Source of the DNA: a filamentous cyanobacterium CCP3
GTDB lineage: Bacteria; Cyanobacteriota; Cyanobacteriia; Phormidesmidales; Phormidesmidaceae
Length of the DNA: 36,763 bases
Assembly (NCBI GenBank): GCA_003022385.1
Contig: PYGV01000019.1
Coordinates: 1-36,763 of the forward strand
Reading direction: 5' to 3'
Part shown: positions 12,348 through 25,488 of the stretch, in pieces
Layout: the number at the start of each line of letters is the position of its first letter
Position numbering within the stretch: the stretch's first letter is position 1
The notes under the pieces: generated by a model
What the model was told of the DNA's origin: nothing
Database searches by the model: none
What the model saw: the letters and a program-made list of their open reading frames with translations, nothing else
Translations under genes and position numbers: made by a program

Positions 12348-13184
12348 CTATTTTTGCTGAAGAAAGGCCAGCAATATGGGATTGACCTGATCAGCGTGAG
12401 TCCAGGTGATGGCGTGCGGCCCGCCATGGATAATTTTAAGCTGACTGTTTTTAATCAGTTTCGGAAGTCTGGCGGCGGTGGATTCGAGTGGCAAAATGCG
12501 ATCGGCATCGCCATGAATAATTAGGGTAGGTATATCAATCCGGGGCAGATCATTGCGGAAATCGGTGAGCCAGGACGGGACACAATCCAACGTTCCTTTA
12601 GCAGACGCCCCGGCTGCCACATTCCAGCAGGCTTGAATGGCATAGTTGCTGATGCGTTCGCCCAGCAGCACATCCACATTAAAAAATTCTCTGAAAAATT
12701 CAGAAAAGTAAGCGGGACGGTCTTTAACAATCGCTGTCATAATGCCATCGAAAACGCTTTGGTCAACGCCTTCGGGATTATCAGCGGTCTTCAGCAGGAA
12801 GGGCGGCACTGGAGCCATCAGCACGGCTTTTTGCACCCGCTTTGAGCCATAGTTGCCAAGATAGCGTGTGACTTCGCCGGTTCCCATAGAAAAGCCGACC
12901 AGCACAGCATCATGCAAGTCAAGCTTGGTCATCAGCGTGTTCAAATCGGCTGCAAAGGTATCGTAGTCGTAGCCCACCGAGGGTTGGCTAGACGCACCAA
13001 ATCCTCGGCGATCGTAAGTAATCACTCGATACCCCGCATTTAACAGCACCAAGACCTGCTTTTCCCAGGAATGGCCGTTGAGGGGAAATCCATGAATGAG
13101 AACAATGGGTTGACCGGCCCCAAGATCTTCGTAATAGATATCGATGGTTGCAGAATTTTCTTGACCAACAGTCACGTAAGGCAT
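12348..13184 (-). CDS. alpha/beta hydrolase, cofactor-free haloperoxidase/esterase type
   Basis: This 278-residue cytoplasmic protein lacks a signal peptide. The oxyanion-hole motif HGFPLNGHSW occurs at 31-40, the nucleophile elbow GFSMG at 97-101 (S99), the acid D228 in HGDADR and the histidine H257 in GGPHAI. This matches the chloroperoxidase/arylesterase group (cofactor-free haloperoxidases), usually about 275 residues. AGGAGG at a good distance sets the start. It follows an araC gene on the same strand, and its promoter region contains two 13-mer direct repeats 21 bp apart upstream of TATACT. I infer control by that AraC protein. The natural substrate is unknown; haloperoxidase activity in this family is a side reaction of an ester- or perhydrolase. 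Confidence 0.88.
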   Translation of the reverse strand: MPYVTVGQENSATIDIYYEDLGAGQPIVLIHGFPLNGHSWEKQVLVLLNAGYRVITYDRRGFGASSQPSVGYDYDTFAADLNTLMTKLDLHDAVLVGFSMGTGEVTRYLGNYGSKRVQKAVLMAPVPPFLLKTADNPEGVDQSVFDGIMTAIVKDRPAYFSEFFREFFNVDVLLGERISNYAIQACWNVAAGASAKGTLDCVPSWLTDFRNDLPRIDIPTLIIHGDADRILPLESTAARLPKLIKNSQLKIIHGGPHAITWTHADQVNPILLAFLQQK

Positions 13185-13233: not shown

Positions 13234-13295
13234 AGTATAGTGAGTTTTAAGGCTCGGTTTCTTTCAGATTCTTAGGGTAAATTTTCAGATTCTTA
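13234..13295 (-). promoter_or_regulatory. AraC-type promoter with two 13-mer direct repeats (site 1)
   Basis: On the plus strand TTTCAGATTCTTA lies at 13262-13274 and again at 13283-13295, a 21-bp period (two helical turns). A -10-like TATACT (minus strand, 13239-13234) sits 22 bases downstream of the proximal repeat, while no good -35 is visible, as is usual for activator-dependent AraC promoters. It would drive the hydrolase at 13184. The same layout recurs at 24536-24597 and 21781-21841. Confidence 0.65.
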
Positions 13296-13300
13296 AGGTG

Positions 13301-14194
13301 TTAGCGAACCTGTTTCGGTGTTACTCCGGTGAGTCGCTTAAACTGTTGCGTCAGATGACTTTGACTGGAGAAGCCGACTTGTAGAGCGATGTCGGCGATC
13401 GCCAAATCTGTTCCCTTCAACATTACTTCTGCCCGTTCCACTCGCTGTTTAATCACATACTGATGCGGTGACATCCCTATTACTTTCTTAAACAAGCTGG
13501 CAAAGTAAGTTGGGCTGATATTAACGACGCCTGCCAGTTCAGTCAAGGATAAATCTCGATTTAAATGAGCGTGGATGTAATCGATCGCCTGCTGCAACTG
13601 AGCATGAGTTAAGCGGTTATTTGGTAATGCAATCGGTTTCGCCAGGGTCGAATAGCGTCGTAGTAAATGAATCACTAAAGCCTGAGTGAGTGATTCGATA
13701 TATAACTGTCCCATCATCCCGCCCGATTTCAGCTCGGCGAACATTAGCATGCCAATCTGATGAAGTTGCACATCTTGCTGACCAAAACAGGGCACGAGCT
13801 CAAACCGTTTTGAATCAACGTCAGAGACTTCAGCAACCTGTTGAATCAATTCCGGTTTTAAGCAAATGTGCAGCGGCGCACAAATGACATCACTCATATC
13901 GGGTGCTTGACACCAATAGCTCGGTTGTCCAGCTGGAACCAAAAGGCTGTCTCCTCGGTAGAGGGTTGATTCATATAGGCGATCGTCGCGGTTTTGAACT
14001 AAAGGGGCAGGATCTCCCGTGTGGAAGTAGAGCCAGTGATCGGCTAAAGCAGGGAGTTCCATATCAAACGCTGAAGCAGGGCTCTGACACTGCTCCACCA
14101 AAATGCCATTCCAGTTCATTTGGCGACTGGAGAACATCAGCGTTTTGTTCCACTGGCGGCTGAGTTCGAGCGAGTTGAGCGGGTTGCTGGCCAT
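13301..14194 (-). CDS. AraC-family transcriptional regulator, copy 1
   Basis: This regulator is about 297 residues from the start MASNPLNS (14194), which is shared with the paralogue at 25488; an upstream ATG at 14251 is possible. The N-terminal two thirds form a ligand-sensing/cupin-like half (WLYFHTGDP, GDSLLVPAGQPSYWC). The C-terminal 100 residues carry two helix-turn-helix units: AIDYIHAHLNRDLSLTELAGVVNISPTYFASLFKKVIGMSPHQYV, and LAIADIALQVGFSSQSHLTQQFKRLTGVTPKQVR. It is a DNA-binding activator/repressor in the cytoplasm; the ligand is unknown. The gene directly precedes the hydrolase, with paired 13-mer boxes between them. It is clearly homologous along its whole length to the regulator at 24601-25488 and to the broken copy at 23303. 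Confidence 0.92.
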   Translation of the reverse strand: MASNPLNSLELSRQWNKTLMFSSRQMNWNGILVEQCQSPASAFDMELPALADHWLYFHTGDPAPLVQNRDDRLYESTLYRGDSLLVPAGQPSYWCQAPDMSDVICAPLHICLKPELIQQVAEVSDVDSKRFELVPCFGQQDVQLHQIGMLMFAELKSGGMMGQLYIESLTQALVIHLLRRYSTLAKPIALPNNRLTHAQLQQAIDYIHAHLNRDLSLTELAGVVNISPTYFASLFKKVIGMSPHQYVIKQRVERAEVMLKGTDLAIADIALQVGFSSQSHLTQQFKRLTGVTPKQVR

Positions 14195-14251
14195 AGAGCT
14201 TGCTCTCACTGTTTTCTTGCAACTACAAAAATCAAAGGTTTTCCAAGTCAA

Positions 14252-20547: not shown

Positions 20548-21534
20548 TCACCCACGATCTTGCGGTGGCTCTGGAAAACGGGTTGGGGTCTTACGCTTGA
20601 ACACTCCGTAGGCGATCGCCAGAAACACGGGTACGACAACCAGCATTGATAGAGCCGTATAGGTCGCGTGGAACTCGCTGACTGTGAATAGAGTTGGCGG
20701 GGTCACGCCGCTTCCAGTCACGGCGCTTCCGGCTACGCCCATCAAGAGATTGCCGCCGATGTTGTTCGCGAAGTGTACGCCGATGGCGAGTTCAGTGGTT
20801 CCGTCAATCAACGAAACCACGGTCCACACTAGACCCGGAACGAGGAAGTAGTTGAAGAAGACCGTGAGCCAGCCGCCAGCGCTCGCCTCCGGGTTGAGCA
20901 GGTGCGTCAGGGCGAAGATCACGGCTGGCAGCAGCGCCAGAAAGACGCGGTTAGACCAAACAATACTCGCACCCTGCAAAATGTAGCCGCGAAAGAACAG
21001 CTCCTCTGCGGTGGTCTGGATCGCAACGACAATCAGCGCGATCGGCACGAAGAGCGCGAACGTTGTGAGGTCAAAGTTAAAAGAGAAGGTGTCGGGATAG
21101 AAGAAGTACTGTCCCAACCCAGCGATCAGCCAGACTGGCACGAACCACGCCACAAACCCATGACCGACACGCCGCCAGCTAATCTTCTCCCGCGCTGTGA
21201 CCAGCGTCCGGGGATGACGCTGGTGAATGAGGGTGACGGCGATCAGGATTCCCGCGAGGAAGAATGGAAAACTTGCCCTGAACGCAACGAAGCCCCCCAC
21301 GAGGCCGAGTGCAGCATAATCCAGCCGATTGAACGCCGCAAGCGCCTCCTGACCGCCGAGCAAGAACGCAATGCGCGGGACAGTGATGCCGTTGACGATC
21401 AGTCCCACAAAAAAGATGACGACTAATCCCAGAACGTACCGCCACCCCCGATGCTTACCCCATCGGGCAGCCTCCACGTAGGTAACTTTTTTCGCTTCTG
21501 CCGTGATTCCTTTTTTTCTTTCGATGTTTTGCAT
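20548..21534 (-). CDS. CPBP-family intramembrane metalloprotease, second
   Basis: This is about 328 residues from the second ATG (21534), which has GGAG six bases upstream; the first ATG (21540) abuts that site too closely. It begins with a hydrophilic stretch of roughly 30 residues, then about eight membrane helices. Motifs, numbered from 21540: TTAEELFFRG (E179, E180, R184), FALTH (H213) and GVHFANN (H256). It is longer than the neighbouring family member and shows little direct similarity outside the motifs, so the two are not a recent duplication. Upstream lies a 350-base interval with a degenerate AraC-type promoter and a broken gene remnant, which may be its leader. The substrate is unknown. 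Confidence 0.88.
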   Translation of the reverse strand: MQNIERKKGITAEAKKVTYVEAARWGKHRGWRYVLGLVVIFFVGLIVNGITVPRIAFLLGGQEALAAFNRLDYAALGLVGGFVAFRASFPFFLAGILIAVTLIHQRHPRTLVTAREKISWRRVGHGFVAWFVPVWLIAGLGQYFFYPDTFSFNFDLTTFALFVPIALIVVAIQTTAEELFFRGYILQGASIVWSNRVFLALLPAVIFALTHLLNPEASAGGWLTVFFNYFLVPGLVWTVVSLIDGTTELAIGVHFANNIGGNLLMGVAGSAVTGSGVTPPTLFTVSEFHATYTALSMLVVVPVFLAIAYGVFKRKTPTRFPEPPQDRG

Positions 21535-21586
21535 CTTCATCTCCGTTCCCTTTGTGGGTCAATTCTGTGGTGCTTGGATCTGGTTG

Positions 21587-21780: not shown

Positions 21781-21841
21781 ATTGTATGAGTTTTAACACT
21801 CAACTTCTTTCAAATTCTTACGGTGATTTATTAGATTCCTA
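21781..21841 (-). promoter_or_regulatory. AraC-type promoter, degenerate (site 3)
   Basis: TTTCAAATTCTTA (21808-21820) matches the 13-mer of sites 1 and 2 at 12 of 13 positions. TATTAGATTCCTA (21829-21841), again 21 bp away, matches at 10 of 13. A -10-like TACAAT (minus strand, 21786-21781) follows 21 bases downstream, and the shared TGAGTTTTAA stretch between box and -10 confirms common origin with site 1. Confidence 0.5.
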
Positions 21842-22455: not shown

Positions 22456-23127
22456 TTAAGAATCGACAGGATCGCCGATCGCCCCACCTGTAGCTGTATG
22501 CACGGCGCGGGCCATCTGCCCAAGCGTGTTGCCAAGCGAGGTGGGATCGGCTCCTGCCATCAGGGCCGAACTGACGTCTTCACTGATAACGCGCACGACT
22601 GCGGTGGCCGCTGCGGCGTGCAGTCGCACCTCGATATCGTCAGGCGATCGCCGCAGGCGATCTGCGAAGATCTCGACCAGAGCGCGCTCTATTCGGTCGT
22701 TAGTCATCAGCCAGGCCGTCCGCACATCTGGCTCTTTTTCGGCCAGCACAGTCATCTTGATCACAGCCTGATCAAAGGCCTGCTGATCAGGATCTTTAGT
22801 ACGATTCATCGCCCACTCCATGAGGTGATCTTCCATGGAGACATCCCGAGGCCAGCGGCGCAATAGCGCCACAAACTCCTCGCCATCTTGCGCCAAGACC
22901 GGCTCGACACAGCTCTCCTTGTTGCGGAAGTACCGCCAGAGGGTGCGCACCGAGAGACCCACGGCAGCAGCGATTTGCTCGCCAGTCGTGGCAGCGACGC
23001 CTTGCTCCCAGAACAAACGCGCCGCCTCCCTCGAAATCTCCAGGCGTATCCGCTGCTGCCGCTGCTCACTCATCCTCCCTGGCTTGCGCTCGTTCTTCGT
23101 TGTGTCATTGGTACCGTCACTCCCCAC
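22456..23127 (-). CDS. TetR-family transcriptional repressor
   Basis: This is 223 residues from a GTG at 23127, which has GGGAAG six bases upstream; an internal ATG at 23073 has its purine stretch too close. The DNA-binding domain is RLEISREAARLFWEQGVAATTGEQIAAAVGLSVRTLWRYFRNKESC, with the typical TetR helix-turn-helix (TTGEQIAAAVGLSVRTLWRYF). The C-terminal part is helical and presumably binds a ligand and dimerises. A perfect 15-bp palindrome lies 23 bases upstream, overlapping the transcription start region, so autorepression is likely. Neighbouring candidates for control are the RDD gene downstream and, less likely, the CPBP genes beyond it. The effector is unknown. Confidence 0.92.
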   Translation of the reverse strand: MGSDGTNDTTKNERKPGRMSEQRQQRIRLEISREAARLFWEQGVAATTGEQIAAAVGLSVRTLWRYFRNKESCVEPVLAQDGEEFVALLRRWPRDVSMEDHLMEWAMNRTKDPDQQAFDQAVIKMTVLAEKEPDVRTAWLMTNDRIERALVEIFADRLRRSPDDIEVRLHAAAATAVVRVISEDVSSALMAGADPTSLGNTLGQMARAVHTATGGAIGDPVDS

Positions 23128-23302: not shown

Positions 23303-23505
23303 CTAGCGCACCTGCTTTGGTGTCATGCCAGTGAATCGCTTAAACTGTTGTGTCAAATGGCTTTGGCTAGAGAAGCCAACTTGCAGGGCAATGTCTGCGT
23401 TGGCGCAGCCTGTGCGCAGCACGTATCGCTAAATCTGTTTCCGGCAGCATCAATTTTGCTTGTTCTACGTATTGCTGAATCACGTACTGATGGCAGAGTT
23501 GATTC
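23303..23505 (-). pseudogene. broken third copy of the AraC regulator (C-terminal fragment)
   Basis: Read on the minus strand from about 23505, the fragment gives HQYVIQQYVEQAKLMLPETDLAI, then after a disruption DIALQVGFSSQSHLTQQFKRFTGMTPKQ and a stop at 23305-23303. It closely matches the last 60 residues of the regulator at 24601-25488. A 25-base insertion at 23400-23424 shifts the frame. Everything upstream of the second helix-turn-helix is missing. No 13-mer boxes follow it. It is a non-functional relic of the same duplicated module. Confidence 0.8.
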
Positions 23506-23678: not shown

Positions 23679-24440
23679 CTAGAGAGACTGCCCCCCAGAG
23701 ACTTCGATTCTCTGTCCAGTAATCCATCGATTCTCTTCCGACAGCAGCAGCGCGATCGCCCCTCCAATATCATCGGGTTTACCCACCCGACCTAAAGCAG
23801 TTTGGGACGCAATGTACTTATTGATTTCTGGATTGTCTTGCACGACACTGCCCTCGGTGGCGATCGCTCCTGGAGCAACTACATTCACTGTGATTTGCCG
23901 CTGTCCTAGCTCCTTCGCTAAGGAGCGAGTCAGAACCTCGATCGCGCCCTTCATGCTGGCATAGATCGCTCGTCCTGGGCTTATAGTGCGGGTCAGAAAC
24001 GATGAAACATTCACGATTCGTCCACCATCTTTGAGCAATGGCAGCAACTTCTGAGTGAGAAAGAAGACACCCTTGAAGTTAACGTTGAATATTCGATCAA
24101 ATTCTTCCTCTGTTGTTTCTACAAACAGTGAACCGCCACTAATTTCAGCGTTATTGATAAGGAAATCAAATTGCTCGATGCCCCAAGTGTTTTGCAGAGC
24201 TTGCTTGACTTGTATCACAAACATATCAAGGGTTTCGATGCTGCCGATATCGAGCTGCAATGCGACTGCTTTATTGCCCATTGCCTCAATTTCAGAAACA
24301 ACGGATTTTGCTTCCGCTTCACCATTGAGATAGGTCACAATTACGCCCACCCCTTTCTTGGCCACTGCCAAAGCAGTATTCTTTCCCAGTCCTCGACTCG
24401 CTCCTGTCACTAGAGCAATTTTTGGTTTATCTTGTGTCAT
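23679..24440 (-). CDS. short-chain dehydrogenase/reductase (classical SDR)
   Basis: This is a 253-residue cytoplasmic oxidoreductase of the FabG-like type. The cofactor loop TGASRGLG is at 12-19, where Arg16 suggests NADP(H). The catalytic set is S147, Y160 and K164 (IYASMKGA), and the C-terminal LLSEENRWITGQRIEVSGG is classical. Oddly, the structural NNAG motif reads NNAE (96-99), a change that could affect stability. The usual length is 245-255. GGAG precedes the start. Its promoter region (site 2 at 24536-24597) carries the paired 13-mer boxes, and the AraC gene lies directly upstream on the same strand; I infer regulation by it. The substrate is unknown. A truncated second copy of its C-terminal third lies at 26661-26930. 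Confidence 0.88.
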   Translation of the reverse strand: MTQDKPKIALVTGASRGLGKNTALAVAKKGVGVIVTYLNGEAEAKSVVSEIEAMGNKAVALQLDIGSIETLDMFVIQVKQALQNTWGIEQFDFLINNAEISGGSLFVETTEEEFDRIFNVNFKGVFFLTQKLLPLLKDGGRIVNVSSFLTRTISPGRAIYASMKGAIEVLTRSLAKELGQRQITVNVVAPGAIATEGSVVQDNPEINKYIASQTALGRVGKPDDIGGAIALLLSEENRWITGQRIEVSGGQSL

Positions 24441-24535: not shown

Positions 24536-24597
24536 AATGTACTGAGTTCTTGTGCCTGACTTCTTTCAGATTCTTAGCCTAATTTGTCAGATTCTTC
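24536..24597 (-). promoter_or_regulatory. AraC-type promoter with two 13-mer direct repeats (site 2)
   Basis: TTTCAGATTCTTA (24564-24576) and TGTCAGATTCTTC (24585-24597) are 21 bp apart. A -10-like TACATT (minus strand, 24541-24536) follows 22 bases downstream, exactly the spacing of site 1. It is placed to drive the SDR gene starting at 24440. Confidence 0.65.
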
Positions 24598-24600
24598 CTG

Positions 24601-25488
24601 TTAGCGCACCTGCTTTGGTGTCATGCCAGTGAATCGCTTAAACTGTTGCGTTAAGTGGCTTTGGCTAGAGAAGCCGACTTGTAGAGCGATGTCTGCGATC
24701 GCTAAATCCGTTTTCATCAACATCACTTTTGCCCGTTCTACCCGCTGTCGAATCACATACTGGTGGGGCGAAATTCCCATTTCTTGCTTAAATAGACTCG
24801 CAAAGTAAGTTGGGCTAATGTTAACAACACCAGCCAGTTCAGTCAGGGATAAGTCTCGATTCAGGTAGGTGTGAATATAATCGATCGCCTGCTGCAACTG
24901 GATACGAGTGAAGCGGTTATTTTGGGATGCGATCGGTTTTGTTAGGTTTGAATAGTTCCGCAGTAAATGAATCACCAGAATTTGAGTGAGTGATTCGACA
25001 TAGAGTTGCCCCATTATCCCACCCGATCGCAGCTCAGCTAACATCAGCATGCCAATCTGCTGAAGTTGCAGATCTTGCTGACCAAAACAGGGAACAAGTT
25101 CGAATTGATTCGCATCCATGTCGGAGGTTTCAGCAACTTGTTGAATCAGTTCCGGTTTCAAGCAAATGTGTAATGGAGTGCAGATGACTCCACTTTTATC
25201 TCGGCACCAATAGCTTGGTTGTCCAGCCGGGATAAAGAGATTGTCCCCCTCATGAAGGATTGATTCATGCAGGCGATCATCCCGTTTTTGAATTAAAGGA
25301 GCAGGATTCCCTATATGCAAGTTAAGCCAATGGTCTGAGAGGGCTGGGAGTTCAACCTCGAAAGCTGAAACAGGGCTTTGACACTGCTCAACGAAAATGT
25401 CATTCCAGTTCATTTGCTGACTGGAGAGCATCAGCACTTTATTGAACCGTTGGCTGAGTTCAAGCGAGTTGAGCTGGTGGCTGGCCAT
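24601..25488 (-). CDS. AraC-family transcriptional regulator, copy 2
   Basis: This is about 295 residues from MASHQLNS at 25488; the frame extends five residues further. It is collinear with the regulator at 13301-14194, sharing the opening (NSLELSQRFNKVLMLSSQQMNWN), the sensory half (LFIPAGQPSYWCRDKSGVICTPLHICLKPELIQQVAE) and the two C-terminal helix-turn-helix units (LTELAGVVNISPTYFASLFKQEMG and IADIALQVGFSSQSHLTQQFKRFTGMTPKQVR). The near-identical recognition helices predict shared DNA targets, in line with the near-identical boxes at 13262-13295 and 24564-24597. It is a cytoplasmic DNA-binding protein with unknown ligand. Upstream DNA (25489-25745) also matches the flank of copy 1, so the duplicated unit is larger than the gene. 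Confidence 0.92.
   Translation of the reverse strand: MASHQLNSLELSQRFNKVLMLSSQQMNWNDIFVEQCQSPVSAFEVELPALSDHWLNLHIGNPAPLIQKRDDRLHESILHEGDNLFIPAGQPSYWCRDKSGVICTPLHICLKPELIQQVAETSDMDANQFELVPCFGQQDLQLQQIGMLMLAELRSGGIMGQLYVESLTQILVIHLLRNYSNLTKPIASQNNRFTRIQLQQAIDYIHTYLNRDLSLTELAGVVNISPTYFASLFKQEMGISPHQYVIRQRVERAKVMLMKTDLAIADIALQVGFSSQSHLTQQFKRFTGMTPKQVR

Follow-up and report, generated by a model that had tools for sequence, protein, structure and literature searches.

In a 36,763-nt stretch of the filamentous cyanobacterium CCP3 (contig PYGV01000019.1; hereafter the window), two genes for AraC-type regulators, AraC1 and AraC2, are each followed at the 3' end by a pair of 13-bp boxes repeated with a 21-bp period, with a gene for a predicted alpha/beta hydrolase or short-chain dehydrogenase/reductase (SDR) beyond them. 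The minus strand is the coding strand of the window genes concerned, and box sequences are quoted on the gene strand (Table 1). The order on this strand at AraC1 is the stop codon, 5 nt, TAAGAATCTGAAA, 8 nt, a second TAAGAATCTGAAA, 22 nt, the hexamer TATACT, and then the hydrolase gene. An earlier note, made from the letters of the window alone, had singled out this exact pair, its 21-bp period and its 22-nt distance from TATACT, and all of these coordinates were reproduced. Its remark that a good -35 element is lacking also stands, as neither a sigma-70 promoter with both hexamers nor a terminator was found between positions 13100 and 13400; an ordinary sigma-70 promoter and a terminator were therefore discarded as accounts of the site.

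The identical geometry reported before the SDR gene was recovered as a pair with 0 and 2 mismatches to TAAGAATCTGAAA, both in the distal box, lying 22 nt from TACATT. The two AraC proteins, described in the earlier note as near-identical, are in fact 79% identical. A third pair (1 and 3 mismatches) is present where the note had placed it, at 21781-21841, but its gap is 21 rather than 22 nt, and it is not the decayed copy that was supposed: the distal variant TAGGAATCTAATA is conserved in relatives, where it precedes a gene of the same BLAST cluster, a CAAX protease, at five loci (L048, L049, L053, L057 and L065). Lone 13-mers with at most three mismatches are not enriched (8 in the window versus 7.2 expected). 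The 21-bp pair at the same tolerance occurs twice in the 5.78-Mb genome, both times in the window, and a reversed-pattern control gave none.

Table 1. Paired boxes, associated hexamers and genes in the window.
Feature	Sequence or family	Position	Strand	Remark
Distal operator box, AraC1 site	TAAGAATCTGAAA	13283..13295	minus	5 nt past AraC1 stop codon; position kept in relatives
Proximal operator box, AraC1 site	TAAGAATCTGAAA	13262..13274	minus	21 bp on; ends at about -35 if TATACT is the -10
-10 hexamer, AraC1 site	TATACT	13234..13239	minus	22 nt from proximal box
Target gene, alpha/beta hydrolase	PF00561 (Pfam)	12348..13184	minus	starts at 13184
AraC1 regulator gene		13301..14194	minus	ATG at 14194, stop 13303-13301; longest open reading frame begins at 14251
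Distal box, AraC2 site	GAAGAATCTGACA	24585..24597	minus	3 nt past AraC2 stop codon
Proximal box, AraC2 site	TAAGAATCTGAAA	24564..24576	minus	exact
-10-like hexamer, AraC2 site	TACATT	24536..24541	minus	gap 22 nt
Target gene, SDR oxidoreductase	PF13561 (Pfam)	23679..24440	minus	
AraC2 regulator gene		24601..25488	minus	
Distal box, third pair	TAGGAATCTAATA	21829..21841	minus	conserved variant
Proximal box, third pair	TAAGAATTTGAAA	21808..21820	minus	
-10-like hexamer, third pair	TACAAT	21781..21786	minus	gap 21 nt
Target gene, CAAX-type membrane protease	PF02517 (Pfam)	20548..21540	minus	
C-terminal stub of third AraC gene		23306..23416	minus	36-37 codons; no box directly behind

AraC1 and AraC2 both carry the C-terminal double helix-turn-helix (HTH) that marks the AraC/XylS family (PF12833/PF00165), with HTH_18 E-values of 2.6e-23 and 1.3e-25, both over the cut-off. 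No Pfam sensor family matched the N-terminal region. An AlphaFold2 model built from 28 sequences (mean predicted local distance difference test score, 83.2) predicts a beta-rich, cupin-like N domain joined to an AraC-type HTH, such that the sensor and dimerization domain expected of the family is probably present as well. In searches of the PDB, the modeled N domain matched the AraC dimerization domain (1xja) and cupins, and the modeled HTH domain matched E. coli AraC (2k9s; template modeling (TM) score 0.79 by target) and the AdpA-DNA complex (3w6v; 0.83). The whole chain matched ToxT, Rns and CsvR with E-values of 1e-7 to 1e-10 at TM scores of only about 0.3-0.4 and a root-mean-square deviation of about 16, implying that the two domains are oriented differently from those of the three regulators.

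The association between the boxes and this protein clade was examined in 77 loci with AraC1 relatives, in 23 whole genomes picked for holding clade relatives, and across the phylum. Among 60 non-redundant full-length AraC relatives of at least 52% identity, 55 have a pair directly 3' with at most five mismatches. The whole-genome scan, of the kind proposed in the earlier note, found 141 pairs with none in the reversed-pattern control; 46 lie directly behind a listed clade AraC gene, 91 within 5 kb and 109 within 20 kb. Adjacency was scored for 62 clade entries and for the 56 distant entries ranked after them, all taken from the top of a longer list of AraC matches. An adjacent pair follows 38 of 44 full-length clade genes and 8 of 18 short ones, so that the boxes do adjoin AraC homologues elsewhere, and none of the 56 distant AraC genes (at most 46% identity). 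Together these counts support the suggestion of a candidate new AraC-type operator. Pairs far outnumber regulators, with 141 against 44 full-length clade genes, and neighboring pairs within 15 kb are co-directional in 73 of 74 cases. At 24 loci holding distant AraC genes, the closest site on the strand of the AraC gene still differed at 8 to 13 of the 26 box positions.

Both the spacing and the placement of the pair are narrowly held. Over 112 partly overlapping loci plus the window, and with coding-repeat matches included, the 21-bp period accounts for 143 pairs, whereas the other spacings from 13 to 44 bp reach at most 11 (42 bp), followed by 10 (18 and 31 bp) and 8 (39 bp). The pair starts 8 nt past the last AraC codon (the stop codon plus 5 nt) in most clade members and 9 nt past it in most others, with one of these two positions in 43 of the 46 adjacent sites of the 23-genome scan, and the placement is kept though clade proteins range down to 59% identity. 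Three distant AraC genes (L210, L211 and L212; 41-43% identity) have other repeats at the 3' end, e.g., GCAAGAATGTCC; those of L211 and L212 have a 21-bp period and lie inside a C-terminal extension of the reading frame. Past the stop codon of 26 distant AraC genes there was no excess at a lag of 21, with a starting point that left L211 and L212 out of view.

When 386 genomes of the phylum were searched for the pattern, pairs were found in 12, with reversed-control columns of 0; four of the 12 (G048, G064, G103 and G127) were set aside because their pairs, judged from the sequence, resemble tandem repeats within coding regions. Six of the same 386 genomes encode a clade AraC at E <= 1e-60; all six carry a pair, and only two further genomes, G185 and G308, have convincing pairs. 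G185 holds a stand-alone, HTH-only relative, a frame of 132 codons with 71% identity, on the same contig as the pair. Further HTH-only relatives of about 118-132 codons were seen at L088-L090, L048:697-1041, L180:16455-16799 and L229:8642-8998, with the operator directly behind the gene in L048 and L229 and none directly behind in L088-L090 and L180. MarA and SoxS have the same HTH-only plan.

The layout of the sites was derived from 94 non-redundant sites of the 141 distinct ones. The consensus reads CCA-TAAGAATCTGAyAAA-n6-TAAGAATCTGAAAGAAgTCrAGCATTgGAACTCa-n-TACACTtcAGAT, and the two boxes are its most conserved columns. A TA...T hexamer at a gap of 22 nt is present in 76 of the 94 sites, and the best -10-like hexamer is TACACT in 57. 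If this hexamer is the -10, the boxes span about -68 to -56 and -47 to -35. The pair is thus a tandem direct repeat two helical turns apart, as in AraC-type operators, and by sequence the sites have the traits of class II activation: a proximal half-site near -35, a fixed distance to the -10, and, in the window copy, no -35 element. Between proximal box and -10 (13240-13261 and other sites) the sequence is conserved too, as GAAgTCrAGCATTgGAACTCa, beyond the needs of an ordinary promoter spacer. A third half-site, 18 bp past the start of the proximal box, was considered and dropped, since its best mean match of 6.8 of 13 was equaled by 91 of 1000 column shuffles.

The clade proteins are most alike where DNA would be read. 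Across 25 of them, mean identity is 83.6% in the HTH domain, 91.6% in the second HTH region and 66.0% in the sensor region, and the recognition helices are nearly invariant. In many regulators the DNA-binding domain is the better conserved part in any case; with that caveat, the contrast fits one operator with diverging inputs.

What lies behind the operator is far more varied. The first genes behind the sites, taken by script as the best-scoring long open reading frame, fall into 38 BLASTP clusters; a few (e.g., L047_8478 and L085_4879) are possibly not genes, and the clusters are not all distinct at the superfamily level, six being SnoaL-like by Pfam. Pfam searches with 30 further representatives (3 without a family) and the window genes reduced the clusters to about 18 kinds: alpha/beta hydrolases, SDR, RidA, SnoaL-like, TetR, Rce1/CAAX, cupin, GMC oxidoreductase, isochorismatase, zinc alcohol dehydrogenase, NmrA, flavodoxin-fold reductase, glutathione S-transferase (GST), glutaminase, methyltransferase, metallo-beta-lactamase fold, FAD/BBE oxidase and pyridine nucleotide oxidoreductase. 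These targets are mostly detoxification-like. On a quick AraC tree with many weak forks (53 of the 60 proteins; 7 had too few filled columns), 27 labels, i.e., 26 target clusters plus "none", require 29 changes against a minimum of 26, whereas shuffled labels require 42.1 on average and were as low as 29 in 0 of 200 trials. Targets therefore track the AraC tree, chiefly in the hydrolase and CAAX groups. Close AraC relatives with differing first targets do occur, for example at L070, L071 and L094 and also at L051 and L052; L071 and L094 have the same AraC and promoter as L070 with other genes behind. At L070:4977-6858, a RidA gene is flanked by duplicated fragments of a metallo-beta-lactamase-fold gene and of its leader. 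An integron-like cassette array, an idea suggested by L070 versus L071, was rejected as a general rule: the repeats include these duplicated gene and leader pieces, and the leader element was found only in L070 (the same stretch as L185), L071, L094 and L124 among the loci compared.

The promoter region itself appears as a shared unit. In 229 same-genome site pairs with different downstream clusters, spread over 22 genomes, identity at the DNA level is elevated between about -20 and +75 relative to the pair start, peaks at both boxes and is near background on either side, delimiting a unit of operator plus -10 region of about 85 nt. Six same-genome site pairs, some of them reusing a site, share 88-99% identity across 80 nt, with genes of different clusters behind them; they come from Calothrix NIES-4105, Calothrix PCC 7716 and Dulcicalothrix, which are related, and the matches end about 10-21 nt to the left and 44-89 nt to the right of the pair. 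Such near-identical copies before non-homologous genes of one genome are what has been described as putative mobile promoters and promoter propagation (Matus-Garcia et al. 2012 and van Passel et al. 2014, as cited in PMC8049555). The resemblance is to promoter-length copies before different-cluster genes; going by that citing description, the present case differs in having a dedicated operator and a regulator family often directly upstream.

When the 340 nt upstream of each of 148 distinct sites were searched by tblastn, a long AraC piece was found at 67, a short stub at 17 and nothing detectable at 64; 11 of the 64 end in a recognizable TPKQVR-stop remnant, as compared to 0.02% in shuffles. 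With 67, 17 and 11 sites bearing AraC traces, it seems that at least 95 of the 148 arose from a unit of AraC gene plus operator. Many sites are explained by shared ancestry and loss of the regulator; for a few, the near-identical pairs suggest that the promoter was copied by itself. In the window, the box-less AraC stub (Table 1) is followed by TetR and RDD genes (22456-23127). Nodosilinea LEGE 07298 (L176) has a stub, a box (5 mismatches) and a TetR gene in line, and for this reason the window copy seems to have lost its box.

Within the CCP3 genome the pairs are confined to this island, in agreement with the island-specific regulon proposed in the earlier note, but other cyanobacteria and plasmids carry them too. 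A search of 72,556 plasmid records with a 91-bp module (L070:4900-4990) found it on 7 of them, at 13 places; all 7 are cyanobacterial and 4 are typed conjugative. The surroundings were inspected in 6 of the 7. On a Synechococcus NIES-970 plasmid, an annotated clade AraC gene (70.6%) is followed 5 nt on by the pair and then by a TetR gene, and on a Gloeocapsopsis dulcis plasmid the pair lies 5 nt beyond an HTH-only AraC gene. Annotated plasmid neighbors include SDR, RidA, ester cyclase, zinc dehydrogenase, pirin, dioxygenase and CAAX genes. On the Trichormus and Gloeocapsopsis plasmids (L228:1-834 and L229:1-7266), the edge of the stretch encodes a response regulator and a PAS-domain protein of very large size. 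No clade AraC gene was found adjoining the pair at the sites of the Trichormus variabilis ATCC 29413, Nostoc MS1, Chroococcidiopsis and Oscillatoria plasmids; the Nostoc MS1 site has a weak 13-residue match to an AraC C-terminus (E 0.21). The viral_contigs collection held no exact match to one strict pattern, and phages gave no match.

The closest well-known parallel is the E. coli araBAD promoter, at which AraC occupies I1-I2, a direct repeat of 21-bp period whose downstream half-site ends at about -35; the araC gene is divergent from araBAD, and its box sequence is unlike the cyanobacterial one. The cyanobacterial system shares the 21-bp direct repeat, the box end at about -35 and the two-domain protein plan, and differs in that the operator lies 3' of a co-directional araC gene, has another box sequence and serves many targets rather than one operon. 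A second parallel is CdhR of Pseudomonas aeruginosa, a relative of GbdR, which is an AraC-family activator with GGTCGC half-sites and a 15-bp spacer, i.e., a 21-bp period (PMC5806209). The same account terms CdhR class I, with a site upstream of the promoter, a GATase-type sensor domain and a divergent regulator gene, so that the likeness extends to family and repeat period, and sequence, sensor type, gene orientation and class (II in our reading) are different. Among the titles and abstract openings listed in literature searches, none described this operator; the papers listed for the 10-letter core are, judged by title, apparently unrelated to cyanobacterial regulation.

Taken together, the data lead us to conclude, with a probability of roughly 0.8, that the paired boxes are the operator of this cyanobacterial AraC/XylS clade, a class II activator site that would probably be shared in trans by several paralogues and sometimes be copied as a promoter unit before new genes. 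The comparative evidence that the boxes are the putative operator of the AraC clade is strong and specific. We infer from the geometry that regulation is by activation rather than repression, and, because the reading helices are near-invariant and operators exceed regulators, that several AraC paralogues may share the operator in trans. An AraC dimer would bind the two boxes as adjacent sites on the same face of the helix, offset by two turns. As the downstream box ends at about -35, AraC would take the place of the lacking -35 element by contacting RNA polymerase, and would switch on the next gene from the proximal box. With a common operator and near-same reading helices, each AraC would be able to act beyond its own adjoining copy, on all operator copies in the cell, while sensor regions diverge across the clade. 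The operator and -10 would be kept as a unit whose copies, with an AraC gene, a stub or neither, stand before different genes. The kinds of target genes hint at a small molecule, perhaps reactive or aromatic, as the inducer. Entire islands and plasmid segments are probably turned on by one regulator family. More tentatively, the system may be a self-spreading regulon, in which an AraC gene with a target promoter at its own 3' end forms a portable cassette, and promoter copies with or without the regulator come to precede detoxification-like genes newly gained by islands and conjugative plasmids, placing these genes at once under all AraC paralogues (many inputs, one output).

Several observations weigh against this interpretation. 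Five of the 60 full-length AraC genes lack a good adjacent pair: L042 has one box left, the pairs of L061 and of two L062 genes are degenerate or have lost a half, and behind one gene in L124 stands a second AraC gene. The conservation of the spacer exceeds the demands of simple class II activation, and sites related by descent do not make the counts independent trials. The clearest result against a simple one-to-one story of regulator and operator is G308 (L121), with completeness given as 100, which has two good operators, before GST and SnoaL-like genes, and no clade AraC, the best match being 29% identical. On the module plasmids of Trichormus, where plasmids only were searched, there is likewise no clade AraC (best full-length match, 36.8%), and at the 64 sites mentioned above tblastn detected no AraC upstream. 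Where a clade AraC is missing, the regulator may have been lost, may lie elsewhere, or the box may be read by another protein.

That last option, generalized, would make the AraC genes mere hitch-hiking neighbors of boxes read by some other regulator. G308, the 64 AraC-less sites and several plasmid sites speak for it, yet 11 of those 64 keep a vestigial AraC C-terminus, all six phylum genomes with the clade have boxes and just two others have convincing ones, and TetR genes stand at some sites only in the island maps (other families were not searched systematically); we regard it as improbable. Somewhat less so, though still unlikely, is that the same AraC proteins use the same operator as repressors, or as repressor/activators controlled by ligand, blocking RNA polymerase at about -35 until the inducer arrives. 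The proximal box does abut the -35 region, and proteins bound there can block polymerase; against this, the promoter has no recognizable -35 hexamer and is probably weak unaided, and a 21-bp-period direct repeat is read by an activator in the case of CdhR (PMC5806209). Most remote is the proposal that the repeats are recombination or mobile-repeat sequences that lie behind AraC genes by chance. The six near-identical pairs in three Calothrix-like genomes and the co-directional arrays would suit a mobile repeat, but not the fixed -10 geometry, the concentration of conservation in the boxes, or the specific pairing with one AraC clade.

Read as the operator of an AraC clade, the paired box with its regulator is a clear and small candidate for a native cyanobacterial promoter that can be induced. 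On this reading, several sensors are predicted to converge on one operator and many uncharacterized hydrolase, SDR, RidA and SnoaL-like genes to be co-induced, which should help to reveal the purpose of the islands and plasmids that carry them. Genomes with several near-identical promoter copies would offer a way to study how genes enter a regulon.
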